This document shows positions 6,892-32,949 of a DNA stretch of 43,299 bases, piece after piece. Both the position numbers and the translations under genes were made by a program. Below the pieces are notes generated by a model. That model did no database searches and was not told where the DNA came from. It saw nothing but the letters and a program-made list of their open reading frames with translations. This DNA comes from Corallococcus terminator. Lineage in GTDB: Bacteria > Myxococcota > Myxococcia > Myxococcales > Myxococcaceae. The DNA is taken from NCBI RefSeq assembly GCF_003611635.1, contig NZ_RAVZ01000034.1:1-43299 (forward strand), read 5' to 3'. Numbering within the stretch: the stretch's first letter is position 1; the number at the start of each line of letters is the position of its first letter.

Positions 6892-7629
6892 CTACTTCTT
6901 CACGTAGTTCTTCAGGTACGGGGTCGCGTTCACTTCCGCCCCGTTGAGCACGCAGCCCACCAGCGCCGCGCCCGCCAACTGCTCCACCGCCTGGTTCACC
7001 ACCTTGGAGGGGGTGACGTTGGCGCGGATGACCATCAGCACGCCGTCCATCTGGTGGCCGAGGATGGCCGCGTCCGCGAAGGGCAGCGTGGGAGGCAGGT
7101 CCACGTACACCTCGTCGAAGCCCTCGCGCACCGCCTTGAGGAACTGCTTCATCCGGGCGCTCGCCAGCACCTGGGTGCTCTCCTCCGGCGTGGCGCCGGC
7201 GGGGATGACCGCCAGCCGCGTGGCGTTGAAGCGGCGCACCACGTCGCGCACATCGCACTCACCGGCCAGCAGCTCCGCCAGACCCTGCTTGTTGCGCATG
7301 CCCAGCGTGGGGGCCACCTGGCCCCGGCGCAGGTCCGCGTCCACCAGCAGGATGCGGCGCTCCGGGTTCGCCCGGGCGGCGGCCAGCGCCAGGTTGACGC
7401 TCGTCACCGTCTTGCCCTCGCCCGGCATGGCCGAGGTGAGCGCCACCACCTTCATCGGGCGCTGCTCCCGCATCCGCTCCAGCCGGTAGTACAGCGTCCG
7501 GTACTGCTCGGCGGCCGCGGAGGCCGGGGCCGTCAGCGTCACCACCCGACGGTCCACCGCGTTCGAGGAAGTCGCGCTCTCATCCACACGCGGGAGGAAG
7601 TTTCCGGCCCGCTCCATCGTCGAATCCAT
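6892..7629 (-). CDS. exoD: ExoD (BtkA), BY-type tyrosine kinase, cytoplasmic half of a split Wzc
   Basis: 245-residue P-loop ATPase of the bacterial tyrosine (BY) kinase family. Walker A is SAMPGEGKT at 66-74, Walker A' is ILLVDADLRR at about 93-102, and a Walker B-like VYVDLPP follows. In this operon it should partner ExoC, whose C-terminal membrane end would activate it, as in the split CapA/CapB systems of Firmicutes; its M. xanthus counterpart is described as BtkA, needed for mature spores. The tail has only a few tyrosines (TPYLKNYVKK), so a Wzc-like Tyr cluster is reduced. ATG 7629 has GGAG 7 bases upstream; a TTG at 7665 is less likely. Confidence 0.92.
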   Translation of the reverse strand: MDSTMERAGNFLPRVDESATSSNAVDRRVVTLTAPASAAAEQYRTLYYRLERMREQRPMKVVALTSAMPGEGKTVTSVNLALAAARANPERRILLVDADLRRGQVAPTLGMRNKQGLAELLAGECDVRDVVRRFNATRLAVIPAGATPEESTQVLASARMKQFLKAVREGFDEVYVDLPPTLPFADAAILGHQMDGVLMVIRANVTPSKVVNQAVEQLAGAALVGCVLNGAEVNATPYLKNYVKK

Positions 7630-7665
7630 CTGAGTGCTCCAATCTTTTCCGTAGGGGGTCGGCAA

Positions 7666-9075
7666 TTAATTCAGCGAAGTCGGCGAGGAGACGCTGTTCT
7701 TGCTCCCAGCCATGGGCATCAACACCCGCTTCTCCGTCTTCCCTTGCATGTTCGGGACCACCGCCAGGACAGGCAGCGTGATGCGCTCGCGGACCTCGGT
7801 GCCGTCGCGCAGGCTGTCGTCGCGCATCTCCAGCACGGTGCCGGTGAGGACACCCAGCGACAGGGCCAGGAGGGCCGCGATGAGCAGGCCGCTCAGGCGG
7901 TCCGGGCGGGCCGGAGCGGAAGGCACCCCGGCGGGCGAGATGACGTTGAACAGGCTCTGGGCACTCTTGGCCTCCAGCTCCTGGGCGATCTCCGCCTCCA
8001 CCTTGCGGCTCACCACGCTCTGGTACTTGGTGCGGGCGATTTCGTAGTCCCGGTTCATCACCGCCAGCTCATGCGCCCAGCGGGGGGTGTTGTTCAGCCG
8101 CGCCTGGTAGGCCTCGGCCTGCTTCTGCAGGTCCACGATGTCCTTCTGGATGCTGCCCACCAGCGTGGTGACGCGGGCCCGCTCGTTGCGCTCGGCGAAC
8201 ATCCGGCCTTCGGCGTCCTTGCGCTGCTCGGACACGTTGCCCAGCTCGCGCTCCATCCGCTTCACTTCCGGGTGGTCCTCGGTCCACTGCGTCTTGGCCT
8301 GGGTGAGCGTCCGGGACAGCCCGCTCTGCGCGGCCTCCAGGCGCCCCGCCTCGCTGTCCGCGGCGTTGCGGGCCCGGGCCAGGTCGGAGCGACGGGCCTC
8401 GGCGGCGCGCAGCTCCTCGGACTTGGTCTGCAGTTGGGCGCTGATGCGCTCCAGGCCGCGCATGTTCATCTCCATCTGCTCGGGAAGCTCGCCCAGGTGG
8501 TCCACCTTGAAGCGGCTGATGTTCGCCTCCCACGCGGAGACCGCCTTGCCCATGTTCACCATCTCCTCCGTGAAGAGGTTGGTGGCGCGGGCCGCCTGCG
8601 CCTGGCGGATCTTCAGCGTCTCCTCGGAGAAGATGGCCGGCAGGCGGTTGGTCACCTGCGCGACGACCTGCGGGTCGCGGCCCGCGTACGTCAGTTCGAA
8701 GGCCGTCTCACCTTCGACGCGCACCGTGAGGTCCTTGCGCATCTGCTCCACCGCCGCCTCGATGCCCTTCTCGGAGACCAGCTCCGGGTAGAGGTTCATC
8801 TCCTCGATGGCCTTCTGGAGCACCGGCCGGGCCAGGAGCTCCTGGCGGACCGTCACCAGCCGCTGCTCGATGAGCTCGCTCACCGTGCGCTGCACCATCT
8901 CCTCACCGGGGCGCTGCGGTTCCACGCGCACCACCACCGACGCTTCATAAATGCTAGGCCGCGTCATCACGATCGCCGCGCCCACCACGAAAATTGCAGC
9001 AGCGATCGCCCCCACCAGGGCCTTGCGACGCCACAGCGCCGAAAGCATCTGGTCCGCCGTCATCCCACGCTCCAT
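7666..9075 (-). CDS. exoC: ExoC, Wzc-like polysaccharide co-polymerase lacking the kinase domain
   Basis: Chain-length/co-polymerase protein of the Wzz family, about 469 residues. Membrane helix 1 follows SALWRRK (AIAAAIFVVGAAIVM), then the Wzz periplasmic base, a long coiled-coil region (roughly 170-360, rich in Glu, Arg, Ala), a Pro-containing segment ISPAGVPSAPARP, and membrane helix 2 (GLLIAALLALSLGVLTGTVLEM). There is no kinase domain; that is ExoD, encoded 36 bases downstream. Four in-frame ATGs occur at 9105, 9090, 9075 and 9063. I chose 9075 because GGAGGAG sits 7 bases before it; the first would overlap nothing but leave only 5 bases after exoB. Confidence 0.9.
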   Translation of the reverse strand: MERGMTADQMLSALWRRKALVGAIAAAIFVVGAAIVMTRPSIYEASVVVRVEPQRPGEEMVQRTVSELIEQRLVTVRQELLARPVLQKAIEEMNLYPELVSEKGIEAAVEQMRKDLTVRVEGETAFELTYAGRDPQVVAQVTNRLPAIFSEETLKIRQAQAARATNLFTEEMVNMGKAVSAWEANISRFKVDHLGELPEQMEMNMRGLERISAQLQTKSEELRAAEARRSDLARARNAADSEAGRLEAAQSGLSRTLTQAKTQWTEDHPEVKRMERELGNVSEQRKDAEGRMFAERNERARVTTLVGSIQKDIVDLQKQAEAYQARLNNTPRWAHELAVMNRDYEIARTKYQSVVSRKVEAEIAQELEAKSAQSLFNVISPAGVPSAPARPDRLSGLLIAALLALSLGVLTGTVLEMRDDSLRDGTEVRERITLPVLAVVPNMQGKTEKRVLMPMAGSKNSVSSPTSLN

Positions 9076-10918: not shown

Positions 10919-11328
10919 CTTCCGCTCTCCTTCGTTCACTGATGTCTGGCGAGTGCCGCCGTCCACCGGCCCTGCGGGCCGAGCAGCACGCTTCTGGCGG
11001 TGTCCCTTAGCAGCGCGTGTGCCAGCGGCTTGTAAGAGGGAAAACCCTTGGACTTCGGTGGGTTACGGCGTGCCACATCAGGCGCACATGGGGGGAATCG
11101 GGAAAAATTCCGGTCGTACCCCGGTGTTCTCCCCTGTGCTTTCTGCCGATCGCTTCCGTGCGGTGGAAGAGGTTTGCCCAATCCAGTCCCTCCCCGTTCC
11201 ACGCGCTCCAGCACATGTGAGGAGCCCTCCTGTGCGAGCACTTCGGCACGGGTCTTGAAGAGGGACTGCCCGTCGGACGCATCGGTAGGGTTTCAGGGCG
11301 TCACAACCGTCACACGGGGGACAACGGA
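10919..11328. other. Intergenic region upstream of exoA and of the small ORF at 11329
   Basis: No gene is convincing in these 410 bases. Going away from exoA it holds a leader hairpin CGGCCC-TGC-GGGCCG (10967-10981), the sigma-54 element (11010-11024), then imperfect inverted repeats around 11094-11113 (arms GGAAT/ATTCC) that could be activator sites. Near the other end is a tandem CGTCACA (11299-11305 and 11308-11314), which reads TGTGACG on the other strand, similar to half-sites of CRP-family regulators. Divergent promoters are expected here. Confidence 0.6.
11010..11024 (-). promoter_or_regulatory. Sigma-54 (-24/-12) promoter of the exo operon
   Basis: The minus strand reads TGGCACACGCGCTGC, matching TGGCAC-N5-TTGC with one mismatch and exact GG-to-GC spacing. 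Transcription would start near 10998, giving a leader of about 80 bases before the exoA ATG. The M. xanthus exo operon is reported to be controlled by sigma-54 activators (Nla6) and by FruA, so this fits known biology. Confidence 0.72.
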
Positions 11329-23207: not shown

Positions 23208-24347
23208 ATGGCGGACACCCCGGACCTGGACACCCTGCGGACAGCCCTCGAACGCGTCGACGACGACATCCTCGACGCGCTCCAGCGGCGCATGGCCCTG
23301 GCGGATGACGTGGCGCGCGCCAAGCTGGTGACGGCCTGGCCCTTTCGAGACCCGCAACGCGAGGACCTGCTCCTGCGCAAGCTGCGCGGCCGGGCCGCCG
23401 AGCGCGGGTTGGATCCGCATGAGGTGGAGCGCCTCTACCGCGTCATCCTGGACATGTCCGTCGCGCGGCAGCAGGCGCTCGTCACGCGGCTGGACACCAC
23501 GCCCCTGCGCGTGGGGTATCTGGGCGTCGAGGGCTCCTACAGCCACCTGGCCGCACGCCAGCGCTACGGCCACCGTCCGGGCGGCGTGCTCCTCACCGGC
23601 TTCGACTCCGCGCGGCAGGCGGTGGAGGCCCTGAAGAAGGGCGACCAGGACCTGCTCCTGATGCCCATCGAGAACACCACCGCCGGCACCATCAACGAGA
23701 CCTACGACGTGCTCGCCGCGGGCGATGGCGTCATCACGGGCGAGCTGGTGAGCCAGGTGGATCACCGGCTCCTGGGCGTGAAGGGCGCGAAGCTGGAGGA
23801 CCTGCGCGAGGTGCTGTCGCATCCGCAGGCCCTGGCCCAGTGCGAGGACTACCTGCGCACGCACGTGCCGTGGGCCCGCGCCGTGCTGGGACCGGACACC
23901 GCCGTCGCCGCGCGCACGGTGGCGGACCGCAACGACGTCACGGTGGCCGCCATCGCCAGTGAGTCCGCGGCCAGTCGCTTCGGTCTCGTGGTGCTCGCCA
24001 GCGACCTTCAACCCGGCGCCGACTTCACGCGCTTCGTGGAGGTGGGGCGCGAACCCACGCCGCTCGCGCCAGATGTGCCCTGCAAGACGTCGCTGCTGGT
24101 GGTGCTGGAACACCGCCCGGGCGCGCTGGGCCAGGTGCTGCAACGGCTCACGCAGCGCGGGGTGAACCTCACCAAGCTGGAGTCGCGCCCCATCCCCGGC
24201 GCGCCGTGGCAGTACCGCTTCTACCTGGACGTGGAGGGCCACGCCGCGTCCGCGTCGGTGACTGCGGCGCTGGAGGACTTGCGTTCGCTCACATCGTCGC
24301 TGCGCGTGCTGGGCACGTATCCGCGCGCGGAGCCCATCGATGGATGA
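23208..24347 (+). CDS. pheA: Bifunctional chorismate mutase/prephenate dehydratase (P-protein)
   Basis: 379 residues. An AroQ chorismate mutase domain (about 5-88; LRTALERVDDDIL, RRMALADDVARAK, DPQRED) is followed by prephenate dehydratase (about 100-280; GVEGSYSHLAAR, PIENTTAG at 153-160, SHPQALAQC, FTRF ending at 276) and an ACT domain with ESRP at 325-328 for phenylalanine feedback. It converts chorismate to phenylpyruvate in the cytosol. All dehydratase residues I know to matter in E. coli PheA (Asn of PIEN, Ser/Gln of SHPQ, Thr of TRF) are kept, although the usual Asn before TRF is Asp. The ACT GALV motif is GALG, so feedback may differ. It overlaps the next gene by 8 bases. Confidence 0.93.
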   Translation: MADTPDLDTLRTALERVDDDILDALQRRMALADDVARAKLVTAWPFRDPQREDLLLRKLRGRAAERGLDPHEVERLYRVILDMSVARQQALVTRLDTTPLRVGYLGVEGSYSHLAARQRYGHRPGGVLLTGFDSARQAVEALKKGDQDLLLMPIENTTAGTINETYDVLAAGDGVITGELVSQVDHRLLGVKGAKLEDLREVLSHPQALAQCEDYLRTHVPWARAVLGPDTAVAARTVADRNDVTVAAIASESAASRFGLVVLASDLQPGADFTRFVEVGREPTPLAPDVPCKTSLLVVLEHRPGALGQVLQRLTQRGVNLTKLESRPIPGAPWQYRFYLDVEGHAASASVTAALEDLRSLTSSLRVLGTYPRAEPIDG

Positions 24348-25173
24348 CGCCGCCCCCCGCCGCATCGCCTTCCAGGGTGAGCGCGGCGCGTACGGCGACG
24401 AGGCCACGCGGGCCTTCTTCGGCCCCACGGTGGCGTTGGTCCCCTGCCCTTCCTTCCGCGCCGTGCTCGAAGCCGTCGCCGAAGGCCGGGTGGACGGCGG
24501 CGTCCTGCCCCTGGAGAGCGCGCTCGCGGGCCCGGTGGCGGAGGTGGTGGACCTGCTGCTGGAGTTCACCCCGCGCCTGTCCGGAGAGATGCGCCTGCGC
24601 GTGCGCCACTGTCTGCTCGCGCCGCCAGGGCGTTCGCTCGCGAGCCTCACCCGCGCGCTGTCCCATCCCCAGGCGCTGGCGCAGTGCTCGGGCTGGCTGC
24701 GCAAACACCACCTGCAACCGGTGCCGGAGGTGAACACCGCGGTCGCCGCGCGGCGCGTGGGCGAGGAGGCTCCCGCGGGTACGGCGGCCATCGCCAGTCG
24801 GGCGGCGGCGGACCTCTACGGCCTGGCGGTCCTCGCCGAAGGCATCGAGGACTCACCGGACAACGCCACCCGCTTCCTCGCGGTGGGCCCGGCCATCCCG
24901 CCCCACCTGGGCTCCCGATGGAAGACGTCCGTGGTGCTCACCGTGAACGACGGGCCCGGCGCGCTCGCGGGTGTGCTGGGGGCCTTCGCCGCGCGAGGGG
25001 TGAACGTCGCGCGGCTGGAGTCCCGCCCCGGCGGCGTCCGCGCCTGGGACTACCGCTGGTGCCTGGACGTGGACGGCCGCGAGGATGCGGCGTCCGTGCG
25101 GGCCGCGTTGGAGGAGGCCCGGAGCGCTTGCACGTCGCTCCAGGTCCTCGGCAGCTACGCGCTCAGCGACTGA
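24340..25173 (+). CDS. Prephenate dehydratase-ACT paralogue, possibly regulatory
   Basis: 277 residues with a dehydratase domain (FQGERGAYGDEATRAFF, SHPQALAQC, AAADLYGLAVLAEGIED, DNATRF at 174-179) and an ACT domain (GPGALAGVL, RLESRP ending at 230), but no chorismate mutase. The segment that is PIEN in active enzymes reads PLES (57-60), replacing an Asn known to be important for catalysis. It may be a weak dehydratase, an arogenate/cyclohexadienyl variant, or a non-catalytic partner of the upstream P-protein. Its ATG lies 8 bases inside the end of pheA, so the two are co-translated. Its 3' end overlaps the convergent DAHP synthase by 11 bases. Confidence 0.85.
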   Translation: MDDAAPRRIAFQGERGAYGDEATRAFFGPTVALVPCPSFRAVLEAVAEGRVDGGVLPLESALAGPVAEVVDLLLEFTPRLSGEMRLRVRHCLLAPPGRSLASLTRALSHPQALAQCSGWLRKHHLQPVPEVNTAVAARRVGEEAPAGTAAIASRAAADLYGLAVLAEGIEDSPDNATRFLAVGPAIPPHLGSRWKTSVVLTVNDGPGALAGVLGAFAARGVNVARLESRPGGVRAWDYRWCLDVDGREDAASVRAALEEARSACTSLQVLGSYALSD

Positions 25174-26296
25174 CCTGCGCGCTGGCCTTGGAGGCCGTCC
25201 CGTCGCCGTTCTTCACGGCTTCCGTGTACGCGCCGCGCACGATGTTCGTGTAGCGCTGGAGCGCGCCCAACTGCTCCAGGCGCAGCGCCTGCGGACCGTC
25301 GCACAGGGCGATCTCCGGGTGCGGGTGGAAGTCCACCAGCACCATGGACGCGCCCGCGATGAGGCCCTGGCCAATGGCGTGGAAGATGTCCGGCAGCCCG
25401 TCCGGCGGGGCCTCCGCGCGCCCGATGGCGTGCGAAGGATCCACGCACACCGGCATGCGCGTCAGCCGGCGCACGACGGGCACGTGCGCGAAATCCACCA
25501 TGTTGCGGTGCGGGTCGCCCAGGTGCGTCTTCACGCCGCGCAGGCAGAAGACGATCTTCGGGTTGCCCTCGCTCGCCACGTACTCGCACGCGTTGAGGGA
25601 CTCCTCCAGCGTGATGCCCATGCCGCGCTTGAAGAGCACCGGGAACGCGCGCTGCTGGCCAATGCTCTTGAGCAGCTCGAAGTTCTGCGCGTTGCGCGTG
25701 CCCACCTGGAGCATCACGCCCGTGGGATTTCCCGCCTGCTTGAGCGCGTCGTTGATCTCATCGATGTGGCGCGGGTTCGTCACCTCCATCGCGACCACCT
25801 TGATGCCGTGCTTGCCCGCGGACTCGAACACCCACGGCAGGCACTTGGCGCCCAGGCCCTGGAACTCGTAGGGGTTCGTGCGCGGCTTGTACGCCCCCAT
25901 GCGCGTCGTCTGGATGCCGCAGCGCGCGAGCGCCGCCATCATCGAGTCCACGCTCTCCAGCGAATCCACCGCGCACAGGCCCGCGAAGATGTTCACGGAG
26001 CTGTCATCGAAGGACACGCCGTTGTACTCGAAGCCCGCCGTGGTGCGCTGGCCGCCGTGCCGGCCGATGATCCGGTACTTCTGCGACACGCGCACCACCT
26101 GGCGCACGCCGGGAAGCTGCTGGAACGGCTCCAACGGCACCTGCGCGGTGGAGCCCAGCAGGTACAGCTCCGTGATGGTGGACTCGGCGCCCTGGACCAC
26201 GTGCGCGCGGGGCGTGACGCCCTCGTACTGCGAAGCCAGATGGAGGACGGCATTCACGACGGATTCCGGGGAATCCGGCTCGAGCATCACGATCAT
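25163..26296 (-). CDS. aroF: 3-deoxy-7-phosphoheptulonate synthase (DAHP synthase, Thermotoga-like class)
   Basis: First committed step of the shikimate pathway: PEP plus erythrose 4-phosphate to DAHP. 377 residues: an N-terminal ferredoxin-like regulatory domain (about 1-75, MIVMLEPDSPESVV) as in the Thermotoga maritima enzyme, then the TIM barrel with FAGLCAVDSLES, MGAYKPRTNPYEFQGLG, VMLQVGTRNAQNFELLK, LFKRGMG, FCLRGVKTH, CVDPSHAIGR and DFHPHPEIALCDGPQAL. Metal ligands (Cys, His, Glu, Asp of these motifs) are present. The regulatory domain suggests Tyr/Phe inhibition. ATG 26296 has GGAGAA 9 bases upstream. It faces the two dehydratase genes, giving a Phe/shikimate block. Confidence 0.93.
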   Translation of the reverse strand: MIVMLEPDSPESVVNAVLHLASQYEGVTPRAHVVQGAESTITELYLLGSTAQVPLEPFQQLPGVRQVVRVSQKYRIIGRHGGQRTTAGFEYNGVSFDDSSVNIFAGLCAVDSLESVDSMMAALARCGIQTTRMGAYKPRTNPYEFQGLGAKCLPWVFESAGKHGIKVVAMEVTNPRHIDEINDALKQAGNPTGVMLQVGTRNAQNFELLKSIGQQRAFPVLFKRGMGITLEESLNACEYVASEGNPKIVFCLRGVKTHLGDPHRNMVDFAHVPVVRRLTRMPVCVDPSHAIGRAEAPPDGLPDIFHAIGQGLIAGASMVLVDFHPHPEIALCDGPQALRLEQLGALQRYTNIVRGAYTEAVKNGDGTASKASAQVSR

Positions 26297-26392
26297 GCGA
26301 AGGGTTCTCCTGAAGAAGGGCGTCCAGTCGGCATTCAACACCCACGGCGCGCCCTTTCCCTCCGCTTTTATGGAAAATTGAAACGGGACGGC

Positions 26393-29869: not shown

Positions 29870-31549
29870 CTAGAACTCGGCGCTCGCGCGAGGATCGATG
29901 ATGCCGCACTCCTTGATCTTGTAGAGCAGCGCCTTGTAGCTGATGCGCAGCTTGCCGGCGGCGCGGCGCTTGTTCCACGCGGTGCGCTGGAGCATGGCCA
30001 GTATCGCTTCACGCTCCGCGAGCATCGCGGCGCGCTTGCCAATGTCCTTGAGCGACAGCTCCCCGGCCGGAGGCGGCGGAGGCGGCGGCTGGGGCGCGTC
30101 GAACGGATTGGCGTAGCGCTGGGGCGCCACGGCATTGAACGGCGAAGCGTCCGACACCAGGGCCACCGGAGGAGGCGTCACCGTGCCGCGCGCGGGCATC
30201 TCCAGCACCTGCACGCCCGAGCCATTCGAGGACGCCATCTGGGACGGAGGGGCCGCGAAGACACGGGCCGGCTCGTCGTAGTGACGCGAATGCGAAGGCG
30301 GAGGGCTGAAATCGTCACCCGCGAAGGACGTGGGCAGCGACGGAGCGCTCGCCGGGGTCCGGCCACCCCCTCGAATCTCGTCCAGCACCAGCGTCGGATC
30401 CTTCAGCACGCACAGGCGGCGAACCATGTTCTCCAGCTCGCGCACGTTGCCCGGCCACTCGTAGTCCGTGAAGGCGTGGAGCACTTCCGTGGGCAGCTCG
30501 GAGACGCCCGCCATGAAGCCCTTGCCGTACTTCTTCAGGAAGTGGTCGGTGAGCGGCACCACGTCCTCGCGGCGCTCGCGGAGGGGCGGCAGGCGGATGG
30601 CCACGACGTTGAGGCGGTAGTACAGGTCCTCGCGGAAGTTGCCGAGCGCGATCTCCTTCTCCAGGTCGCGGTTGGTCGCCACCACCACGCGGCTGTCCAC
30701 GCGAACGCTCTTCTTGCCACCGACGCGGAAGAACTCCTCGTCCTGCAGCACCTGGAGCAGCTTCGCCTGGAGGCGGATGGCCATCTCGCCAATCTCGTCC
30801 AGGAAGATGGTGCCCTGGTCCGCCAGTTCGAACTTGCCCGGCTTCTCCGCCGTGGCGCCCGTGAAGGCACCGCGCTCGTGGCCGAACAGCTCGCTCTCCA
30901 GCAACTCACCCGGCAGCGCCGCGCAGTTCACCTTGATGAAGGGGCGACCATGGCGCTGGCTGCGCGCGTGGATCTCACGGGCGATCACTTCCTTGCCCGT
31001 GCCGGACTCACCGAGCAGCAGCACCGGCACGTCCGTGTCCGCGATGCGCTCCACCAGCGCGCGGGCCCGGCGCATGGCCGGCGACGTGGAGATGAGCACG
31101 CGAGCCTCCGCCGCGGCCTCCGCCGACGTCAGCATCACGCGGGGCGCGGGAGGCACCGGCGCCGAAATCTGGCGCTCCGGCACGCGGGTCCCCAGGGCAC
31201 GCGCGAGCACGTCCTGCAGCTCGTCGTTGCCGAAGGGCTTCGCCAGATAGTCGGACGCGCCCATCTTCAGCGCCCGCACCGCGTCGTCCGCGCCGGACAG
31301 CGCGCTCAGCACGATGACCGGGGCATTGCCGCCGTTGCCCCGGTAGCGGCGCAGAACCTCCAGGCCGCTCATCTCCGGCATCACCACGTCCAGCAGCACC
31401 GCGTCGAACGAGCCACCGGAGAGCATCTCCAGCGCCTGGGAACCGCCCGACGCACACCGCACCTGGTAACCCGAGCTGCCCAACAGCTCGGACAGGAACG
31501 TGCGCACCGACTCTTCGTCATCCACCACCAGCACCGCGATCCGATCCAT
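29870..31549 (-). CDS. actB: ActB-like NtrC-family sigma-54 activator (response regulator)
   Basis: 559 residues: a receiver with DDE at 10-12, phospho-Asp54 and Lys104; an AAA+ domain with Walker A GESGTGKE (180-187), GAFTGA (227-232) and FLDEIGE (249-255); a Pro-rich linker of more than 100 residues (about 395-510, with PPPPPPP); and a Fis-type helix-turn-helix at the C-terminus (AGKLRISYKALLYKIKECGI). The intact GAFTGA means it should open sigma-54 promoters. In M. xanthus actB controls C-signal (csgA) levels during development. Identification rests on pairing with a receiver-GGDEF protein and order relative to rel and exo. ATG 31549 has GGAGG 8 bases upstream; ATG 31597 overlaps the actA stop (TGATG) and is also possible. 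Confidence 0.85.
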   Translation of the reverse strand: MDRIAVLVVDDEESVRTFLSELLGSSGYQVRCASGGSQALEMLSGGSFDAVLLDVVMPEMSGLEVLRRYRGNGGNAPVIVLSALSGADDAVRALKMGASDYLAKPFGNDELQDVLARALGTRVPERQISAPVPPAPRVMLTSAEAAAEARVLISTSPAMRRARALVERIADTDVPVLLLGESGTGKEVIAREIHARSQRHGRPFIKVNCAALPGELLESELFGHERGAFTGATAEKPGKFELADQGTIFLDEIGEMAIRLQAKLLQVLQDEEFFRVGGKKSVRVDSRVVVATNRDLEKEIALGNFREDLYYRLNVVAIRLPPLRERREDVVPLTDHFLKKYGKGFMAGVSELPTEVLHAFTDYEWPGNVRELENMVRRLCVLKDPTLVLDEIRGGGRTPASAPSLPTSFAGDDFSPPPSHSRHYDEPARVFAAPPSQMASSNGSGVQVLEMPARGTVTPPPVALVSDASPFNAVAPQRYANPFDAPQPPPPPPPAGELSLKDIGKRAAMLAEREAILAMLQRTAWNKRRAAGKLRISYKALLYKIKECGIIDPRASAEF

Positions 31550-31596
31550 CCCCACGCCTCCGCTCGCCCTGTGCATCAAATCCTCAGTGAACTTCA

Positions 31597-32550
31597 TCAG
31601 ACCGACAACAGCCGGGCCGGACCGGCCGCCCGCCGAATCTCACGTGTACGCCTCAAGGTCAGCAGTGCCGCGCTCAGCAACTGGGTGGGAGCCCCCACCG
31701 TGTCCGGGAAGCTGACCGCCCCCAGATCCAGCGCCGTGCGCACCACGCGACCCTCCATCTGGAACCGTGCCGCCTCGAACCGGGCCTCCACCCGCGCCAG
31801 CACCTCTGGCACCGACTCCGCGGGCGTGCCCGGCAGCAGCATCGCGAACTCACTGTCCCCCACCCTCGCCACCGCGTCCGCCTCACGCACCGTCTGCCCC
31901 AGCACCACCGCGCTGTAGACGAGCAGCCGCTCCGCCATGGACCTGCCGTGCTCCTTGCGAAGCGCGCTCCAGCCACTCACCTCCGCCGCCACCACGGAGA
32001 AGGTGCCCCCGTAGCGCTCCGTCCTCCGGGCCTCCAGGCCGATGAGCGCCAGCAGGAAGGGCCGGTTGTAGAGGCCCGTCACCGGATCATGCAGCGCCAG
32101 CGCCGTGCCGGCCTCTTCACCGGCCGCCGCGCGCTCCACCGACTGCTTGAGCCGCATCTGCGCGTGCAGCTTCATGGACAGCTCCGCGCCATCCACCGTG
32201 CGCGGCACCACGTCCACGCACTGCCCCTTCTCCACGCAGAAGCGCCAGGCATCCCGGTCGTGCGAATCCACCAGGTACAGCATCGGCACCGTGCCCTTGC
32301 TCACCTGCCGCAGGCGCCGCGCCGTCTGCACCGCCGAGTAGTCCGGCGGCTGGGCGGCGAGCAACACCGCGTCCGGGCGGATCACTTCGAAGAGCGGCAC
32401 CGCCGCGTCGAAACGCGTGAGCGGAACCACGCGAAAGCCCGCCTCGCCCAGGAGCGCCCGGGTGCGCTCCAGGTCCTCCGCCCGAGGCTCCACCAGCAAC
32501 ACCGTAGGAGGCTGCCCCGACTTTCCTGTCCGCTTGCGCTTCAGACCCAC
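31597..32550 (-). CDS. actA: ActA-like protein, degenerate receiver plus degenerate GGDEF domain
   Basis: 317 residues. The receiver-like domain (about 16-128) lacks the acidic pair (LLVEPRAED), has Ala65 where the phospho-Asp belongs (DAVLLAAQPP) and no KP motif. The GGDEF-like domain (about 150-310) keeps HDPVTGLYNRPFLLALI, but the signature is VGDSEF (GDSEF at 231-235) in place of GGDEF, so diguanylate cyclase activity is unlikely. Both domains probably serve protein contact or ligand sensing. In M. xanthus actA is the first gene of the act operon that sets C-signal production. GTG 32550 has GGGAGGG about 9 bases upstream. Its stop overlaps a possible actB start. Confidence 0.8.
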   Translation of the reverse strand: MGLKRKRTGKSGQPPTVLLVEPRAEDLERTRALLGEAGFRVVPLTRFDAAVPLFEVIRPDAVLLAAQPPDYSAVQTARRLRQVSKGTVPMLYLVDSHDRDAWRFCVEKGQCVDVVPRTVDGAELSMKLHAQMRLKQSVERAAAGEEAGTALALHDPVTGLYNRPFLLALIGLEARRTERYGGTFSVVAAEVSGWSALRKEHGRSMAERLLVYSAVVLGQTVREADAVARVGDSEFAMLLPGTPAESVPEVLARVEARFEAARFQMEGRVVRTALDLGAVSFPDTVGAPTQLLSAALLTLRRTREIRRAAGPARLLSV

Positions 32551-32670: not shown

Positions 32671-32949
32671 TTACCCATCCTGGCCCACGGTTTTAGCAAT
32701 GGGTGTGCCATTCATCACCTCACGGAGGCGCGCTTCGAGGACCTCTGGATCCACGCGGTATTTGAAGGCGGGGACGCCTTCAATCAGGACCACGGGGATG
32801 TCGTAACGCCAGGTCTCGAAGAGCTCCGGGCTCTGGAGGATGTCGGTGACGTAGAGCTCGAAGGGCAGTCGGGCCTGCACCTCCTCCACCACGGCACGGG
32901 CCTTCTCACAGAGGGAACACCGGGGTTTCGAGTAGATATCGACGCGCAT
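32671..32949 (-). CDS. Glutaredoxin-like thioredoxin-fold protein
   Basis: 92 residues matching the small glutaredoxin-like (DUF836) family: RVDIYSKPRCSLCEKARAVV with CxxC at Cys11 and Cys14, a short thioredoxin-fold core (FELYVTDILQSPELFETW), the cis-Pro segment YDIPVVLIEGVPAF and a final helix. It would handle thiol-disulfide exchange in the cytosol. There is no alternative start near the required N-terminus. The start is only 21 bases from the divergent start of the DUF4388 gene, and its RBS is weak. It lies 120 bases upstream of actA on the same strand, so it could share a transcript with actAB. Confidence 0.85.
   Translation of the reverse strand: MRVDIYSKPRCSLCEKARAVVEEVQARLPFELYVTDILQSPELFETWRYDIPVVLIEGVPAFKYRVDPEVLEARLREVMNGTPIAKTVGQDG

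Follow-up and report, generated by a model that had tools for sequence, protein, structure and literature searches.

What does a two-domain signalling protein do once the residues of both of its active centres are gone? The question is raised by a minus-strand open reading frame at 32550..31597 of the window (the whole stretch of DNA analysed, 43,299 nucleotides from Corallococcus terminator), which begins with GTG and encodes a 317-residue orthologue of ActA. The genome is Corallococcus-like, with matches of 92–98% identity in all 15 other searched genomes of the genus and of 93–97% identity in contigs named Corallococcus. A first-pass annotation had described ActA as a key developmental regulator that works without phosphorylation or c-di-GMP synthesis, perhaps as an adaptor for ActB. 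Comparison across orthologues leads us to a different reading, to which we give a probability of about 0.7, namely that ActA would be a catalytically dead, phosphorylation-independent c-di-GMP receptor of the SgmT/PopA kind. The features discussed below are the following, with the evidence for each in brackets.

31597..32550, minus strand: actA, pseudo-receiver plus degenerate GGDEF domain (open reading frame, domain search, purifying selection)
32146..32511, minus strand: pseudo-receiver domain, about residues 14–135, with E21-P22, Ala65, Val94 and Arg117-Thr118 (Pfam, structure model, orthologue alignment)
32356..32358, minus strand: codon of Ala65, at the place of the phospho-acceptor Asp (alignment)
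31642..32097, minus strand: GGDEF domain, residues 152–303 (PF00990 at E 2.4e-19, structure model, fold searches)
31957..31959, minus strand: R198, where PleD has N335, the Asn that binds substrate guanine (orthologue alignment)
31876..31887, minus strand: intact primary I-site R222-E-A-D225, PleD R359xxD362 (orthologue alignment, tree)
31846..31860, minus strand: degenerate A-site GDSEF, residues 231–235 (orthologue alignment)
31792..31794, minus strand: R253, in the register of the secondary I-site arginine, PleD R390 (PleD alignment)
29870..31549, minus strand: actB, starting at the conserved ATG; its product is NtrC-like, with receiver, sigma-54 AAA+ and Fis-type HTH domains (domain search, loci comparison)
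31557..31561, minus strand: GGAGG, likely ribosome-binding site of actB (loci comparison)
32695..32710, minus strand: sigma-54 promoter TGGCACA-N4-TTGCT, within the glutaredoxin-like gene upstream (exact match)

The act locus and the actA/actB junction

The gene downstream of actA on the same strand is actB, encoding the ActB orthologue, and a glutaredoxin-like gene lies upstream, also on this strand. Within the latter, the sequence TGGCACACCCATTGCT at 32710..32695 fits TGGCACA-N4-TTGCT, the element given for the actB locus of M. xanthus in Table 1 of PMC9765219. Allowing one mismatch, the sigma-54 pattern is matched twice in the window, against 0.08 matches expected. Among the loci of at least 60% identity, 64 of 65 have a match with at most two mismatches 159–213 nt upstream of the aligned start, and in the one exception, L022, just 122 nt of sequence precede the start. 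L090 and L091 show weaker matches, and L089, too, lacks upstream sequence. Half-sites resembling those of Nla28 occur upstream of the promoter as weak matches, one with a single mismatch and three with two. Directly 5' of actB on the same strand, and with a sigma-54 promoter upstream, actA thus has the arrangement of an act-operon orthologue. Two side observations concern other parts of the window: a second sigma-54-like sequence, TGGCACACGCGCTGCT, lies at 11009–11024 on the minus strand, one mismatch from the searched pattern, and the interval 23208–26341, near the act region, holds genes resembling aromatic amino-acid entry steps (two prephenate-dehydratase-like open reading frames, judged by eye, and a DAHP synthase at 25163–26341, minus strand).

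The two genes had been proposed to be translationally coupled through TGATG at the actA stop. This motif is present in the window (31599..31595) and in 8 of the 68 loci altogether, and is absent from the other 60. Two loci, the window and L010, have the motif in the frame of actB; in the remaining six its ATG opens another frame, which ends at a stop. In every one of the 65 loci with an identity of 60% or more, a conserved actB ATG follows a G-rich block 19–82 nt past the actA stop. The window has it at 31549, at a distance of 47 nt from that stop, and both here and in the other 15 loci of the genus GGAGG precedes it by seven bases. With actB having its own GGAGG-preceded start downstream and the motif in frame so rarely, coupling by TGATG is not borne out, and the overlap was rejected as a conserved coupling device over the 68 loci. 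An ActB start at 31597 was likewise set aside for 31549, since the TGATG frame runs into a stop in six of eight loci and the later ATG block is conserved, while an intermediate ATG (MHRAS in the window) is a less likely start, being absent from L069, L070 and L072. Some coupling of actA and actB across the 47-nt gap may nevertheless occur.

Of the 147 genomes of the class, 68 gave ActA matches at E up to 1e-50 in an alignment search, all of one family. Separately, the receiver part is weakly matched once in a Verrucomicrobia metagenome-assembled genome (L053), at 27% over residues 15–141. Where ActB has a match at E up to 1e-200, actA lies directly upstream in 66 of 68 genomes. The two others, G043 and G051, have no actA beside actB, and neither genome yields a match to ActA at the 1e-40 threshold. 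G048 has a shorter actB-like gene (L094), its receiver seemingly absent by eye, and actA is absent; in G081 and G082 an ActA-like protein (37–39% identity) is present, and no actB start was found within 260 nt after it. ActA is therefore usually, not always, tied to ActB. Adjacency and the conserved promoter make a role of ActA on ActB plausible, a proposal that we regard as tentative.

The coding sequence itself is maintained. In 7 of 7 Corallococcus pairs tried, actA has a dN/dS of 0.08–0.15, and the first 300 codons of actB give 0.014–0.099 in seven pairs of the genus. ActA is under purifying selection, weaker than that on ActB in all seven, and no stop falls inside the actA match in any of the 68 loci.

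Altered active centres and a conserved I-site

The N-terminal domain of ActA scores 14.8 bits against the Pfam receiver model, below the cut-off of 30.2. At the phospho-acceptor place stands Ala65, within VLLAA (residues 62–66), as the first-pass annotation had said; among the 68 orthologues this place is Ala in 66, Ser in one, Gly in one and Asp in none. The acidic-pair place reads E21-P22, and is Glu-Pro in 65 orthologues, Asp-Glu in two and Asp-Pro in one. The earlier statement that no acidic pair is present therefore holds in that the pair is broken, and needs amending in that one acidic residue usually remains. Absence of the Lys-Pro was confirmed, with R117-T118 in its stead; Lys-Pro is found in 2 of 68 orthologues, both the most distant ones. 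A65, E21-P22, V94 and R117 thus occupy the places at which a phosphorylatable receiver carries its Asp, acidic pair, Thr/Ser and Lys. In the alignment of ActA with PleD, the second receiver of PleD likewise lacks the Asp, having Asn at the acceptor place, and it carries Val and Arg instead of the customary Thr and Lys. A dead receiver ahead of a GGDEF domain is therefore nothing odd in itself.

The C-terminal domain matches the GGDEF model (PF00990) at 70.1 bits against a cut-off of 23.8, with E 2.4e-19, and ActA as a whole scores 67.3 bits on the NCBIfam PleD model, which has a cut-off of 474. For the A-site and I-site places we use the residue numbers of PleD (R359, D362, R390 and N335), and PleD N335 binds the guanine of the substrate. 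The reading of the signature as GDSEF proved correct: the place is occupied by 24 different motifs across the 68 orthologues, and canonical GG[D/E]EF is found in none. The place of PleD N335 is Arg in 63 orthologues, Cys in four, His in one and Asn in none, and that of PleD D327 is Glu in 46, Ala in ten, Ser in nine, Arg in two and Cys in one. ActA of the window itself has Ser at the catalytic position, Glu at the D327 place and Arg at the N335 place. In 17 of the 68 orthologues the third and fourth letters of the signature remain acidic (GEDEF, GEEEF, SDEEF and similar), so the loss of the A-site is not complete at every catalytic place; these same 17 have Ala or Ser at the D327 place and Arg or Cys at the N335 place. 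Compared with an active diguanylate cyclase, which has GG[D/E]EF, a catalytic acid and the guanine-binding Asn, ActA has GDSEF and R198.

A different picture is given by the inhibitory site, which the first-pass annotation had overlooked. Nine residues before GDSEF, READ forms an I-site of the RxxD type that lines up with R359xxD362 of PleD, and R253 aligns with PleD R390. None of the 68 orthologues, three of them at 37–41% identity, differs at R222, D225 or R253. An I-site that is intact points to a c-di-GMP receptor. A degenerate A-site with an intact I-site was already printed for M. xanthus ActA in 2012 (PMC3509222, in the part available).

Structure prediction agrees with this domain assignment. 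An AlphaFold2 model of ActA, built from 45 of the 68 orthologues, has two domains with a mean pLDDT of 84.7 and a pTM of 0.66, the relative placing of the domains not being trusted. The best PDB sequence match is PleD, with ActA 17–280 aligned to chain residues 155–418 (its second receiver and the larger part of its GGDEF domain). Foldseek at full length places 3bre (PA3702), PleD and DgcR on top, PleD being second, with a large rmsd because of domain orientation. In VIA-align the GGDEF part fits best (model residues 152–306 against 4yme, Z 22.1, rmsd 1.6, 154 aligned), and PleD comes eighth, with Z 21.5 over 286 residues and an rmsd of 21.2.

Rates of change were compared with DmxB, the developmental cyclase of M. 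xanthus (PMC4877007, in the part available), by counting parsimony changes per site on a common tree of the 65 genomes in which ActA and DmxB both occur. In the DmxB orthologue of the window genome (L003), D60, R210 and D221 match the numbering of the M. xanthus DmxB variants. ActA changes faster than DmxB overall (4.26 vs 2.54 changes per site). Each of the three I-site places of ActA has undergone no change on this tree, and positions 1–5 of its A-site have undergone 5, 7, 12, 6 and 0; in DmxB all eleven corresponding places have none, and the residues are kept in 65 of 65 genomes. As 38 of the 161 sites in the GGDEF domain of ActA never change on the tree, three unchanged sites would be met by random draw with p of about 0.012, a result short of overwhelming. 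Taken together, the six catalytic columns were not significantly more variable than random sites of the ActA GGDEF domain (p about 0.14).

The window genome has 20 GGDEF matches. Among the 19 besides ActA, the Arg and Asp of the I-site are kept in 12 and not in seven, so a GGDEF domain need not have the motif; the weakest few alignments (scores under 20) are unsure, including some of the seven. The Asn of N335 is replaced in three domains (ActA, L195 and L198), and all three keep the Arg, the Asp and the second Arg. L198:1000-1992 (contig C121 of the same genome, G000; GGDEF part 7281–7715) encodes a 330-residue receiver-GGDEF protein with a broken A-site, ADSRF, and an intact I-site, RDID plus second Arg. 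Its receiver seemingly lacks the usual Asp by eye, yet scores above the Pfam receiver cut-off. From these residues, L198 may be another silent c-di-GMP receptor. L195:970-2820 (contig C666) encodes a 616-residue receiver-(GAF-like)-GGDEF protein with an intact-looking receiver, a broken A-site (SDQEF) and an intact I-site (RDSD and second Arg).

Receptor, adaptor or relic

For M. xanthus, published genetics contradict the title of key developmental regulator. According to the available text of PMC4877007, 24 genes for GGDEF, EAL or HD-GYP proteins were mutated singly and 20 of these, actA included, gave no developmental defect; an in-frame deletion of actA develops normally, and the older phenotype is suggested to have been polar on actB. 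Our search of the open-access literature found no test of a developmental role of ActA in Corallococcus and no c-di-GMP binding data for the protein. Two points about the locus are thereby corrected: M. xanthus has been found to develop without ActA, and no conserved TGATG overlap joins actA to actB. Function without phosphorylation or c-di-GMP synthesis, as claimed earlier, is supported by the comparison of residues among orthologues.

In the receptor reading, ActA would derive from a receiver-GGDEF protein that lost both activities. Judged from its residues, the receiver lacks what phosphorylation needs, and the GGDEF domain, having lost its metal-binding, guanine-binding and signature residues, should not make c-di-GMP. 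The kept inhibitory site (R222, D225, R253) probably binds c-di-GMP, and binding would, by analogy with PopA and SgmT, alter dimerisation or partner contact. The likeliest partner might be ActB, whose gene directly follows, with ActA perhaps acting as a non-essential modulator. This reading is favoured by the conservation of the I-site triad together with the loss of the A-site and of the N335 Asn across 68 orthologues, by the top PDB sequence match to PleD, whose I-site is known, by the lack of RxxD in seven of the other GGDEF domains of the genome, by the purifying selection on actA and by the c-di-GMP binding of SgmT through its I-site. Against it count the normal development of the actA deletion, the chance of about 0.012 of drawing three unchanged sites, the unremarkable variability of the catalytic columns, the acidic signature residues left in 17 orthologues, the presence of actB without adjoining actA in G043 and G051 and of an actB-like gene without actA in G048, and TmoK, a GGDEF protein of M. 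xanthus that neither makes nor binds c-di-GMP (PMC4877007, in the part available).

That ActA simply contacts ActB as a protein-protein adaptor, its domains serving as ligand-free scaffolds and its I-site kept for fold or interface, would fit the loss of both active centres, the position of actA directly before actB in nearly all genomes and the conservation of the pseudo-receiver residues E21, P22 and A65 themselves. We consider it unlikely, as the ligand triad is unchanged while four of five A-site positions drift, RxxD is absent from 7 of the 19 other GGDEF domains of the genome, and actB occurs without adjoining actA in two genomes and, as an actB-like gene, alone in G048. Alternatively, ActA could be a dispensable, decaying former cyclase, its gene surviving chiefly as the leading part of the actB transcript. 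The lack of a developmental phenotype in M. xanthus, the faster change relative to DmxB, a dN/dS above that of ActB in each of the seven pairs and the missing actA in G043 and G051 speak for decay, but the low dN/dS of actA, reading frames free of stops, A65 in 66 of 68 orthologues and the I-site in all 68 make it quite improbable. Residual cyclase or other nucleotide activity despite an altered signature is a further alternative, for which the two acidic signature residues kept in 17 orthologues may be cited along with CbrR of Campylobacter jejuni (SAEKI motif), for which low-level c-di-GMP synthesis in E. coli is reported in the accessible part of PMC8779298. With Ser at the catalytic position, Glu at the D327 place and Arg at the N335 place in the window, and no Asn there in any orthologue, such activity is very doubtful.

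If ActA is a receptor and does bind c-di-GMP, it would add one more receptor to those of M. xanthus and a direct route from c-di-GMP to the act operon. The receptors verified in that species as of 2022 are SgmT, Nla24, PixA, PixB, CdbA and CdbB, and ActA is unlisted among them in the available text of PMC8844925. More speculatively, ActA might read the c-di-GMP that DmxB makes in starvation through its I-site and adjust the enhancer-binding protein ActB as a c-di-GMP-gated partner, giving the timing of the C-signal a c-di-GMP input that needs no phosphorylated ActA; this proposal, which we hold to be rather unlikely as a whole, includes a redundant input that masks the loss of actA in laboratory tests.

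Relation to known GGDEF proteins

The nearest counterpart is M. xanthus ActA, an orthologue from another genus with receiver and GGDEF domains, which is encoded in the act operon upstream of actB (PMC4877007, in the part available) and has the same sigma-54 element. SgmT, a hybrid kinase of M. xanthus, shares the degenerate A-site and intact I-site with ActA and binds c-di-GMP in vitro through its RxxD motif, as the available part of PMC3509222 describes. Unlike ActA, which has a pseudo-receiver only, SgmT carries GAF, kinase and receiver domains and has a known partner, DigR. The GGDEF domain of FimX from Pseudomonas aeruginosa has a similarly broken signature, GDSIF, but has Gly and Ala at the places of R222 and D225, where ActA keeps its I-site. 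PleD of Caulobacter crescentus aligns with ActA through its second receiver, which like that of ActA lacks the acceptor Asp, and its GGDEF domain; PleD, however, is an active, phosphorylated cyclase. PopA, from the same bacterium, has two receivers before its GGDEF domain and acts in polar localisation, whereas ActA has one receiver and its gene stands beside an NtrC-like gene. With a single receiver in 317 residues, ActA was not filed as PopA, although by analogy it may work like it. In its GGDEF fold, lost A-site and substrate residues and conserved RxxD, ActA has the sequence features of the receptor class, and it probably belongs to this known kind of inactive GGDEF proteins that serve as c-di-GMP receptors.
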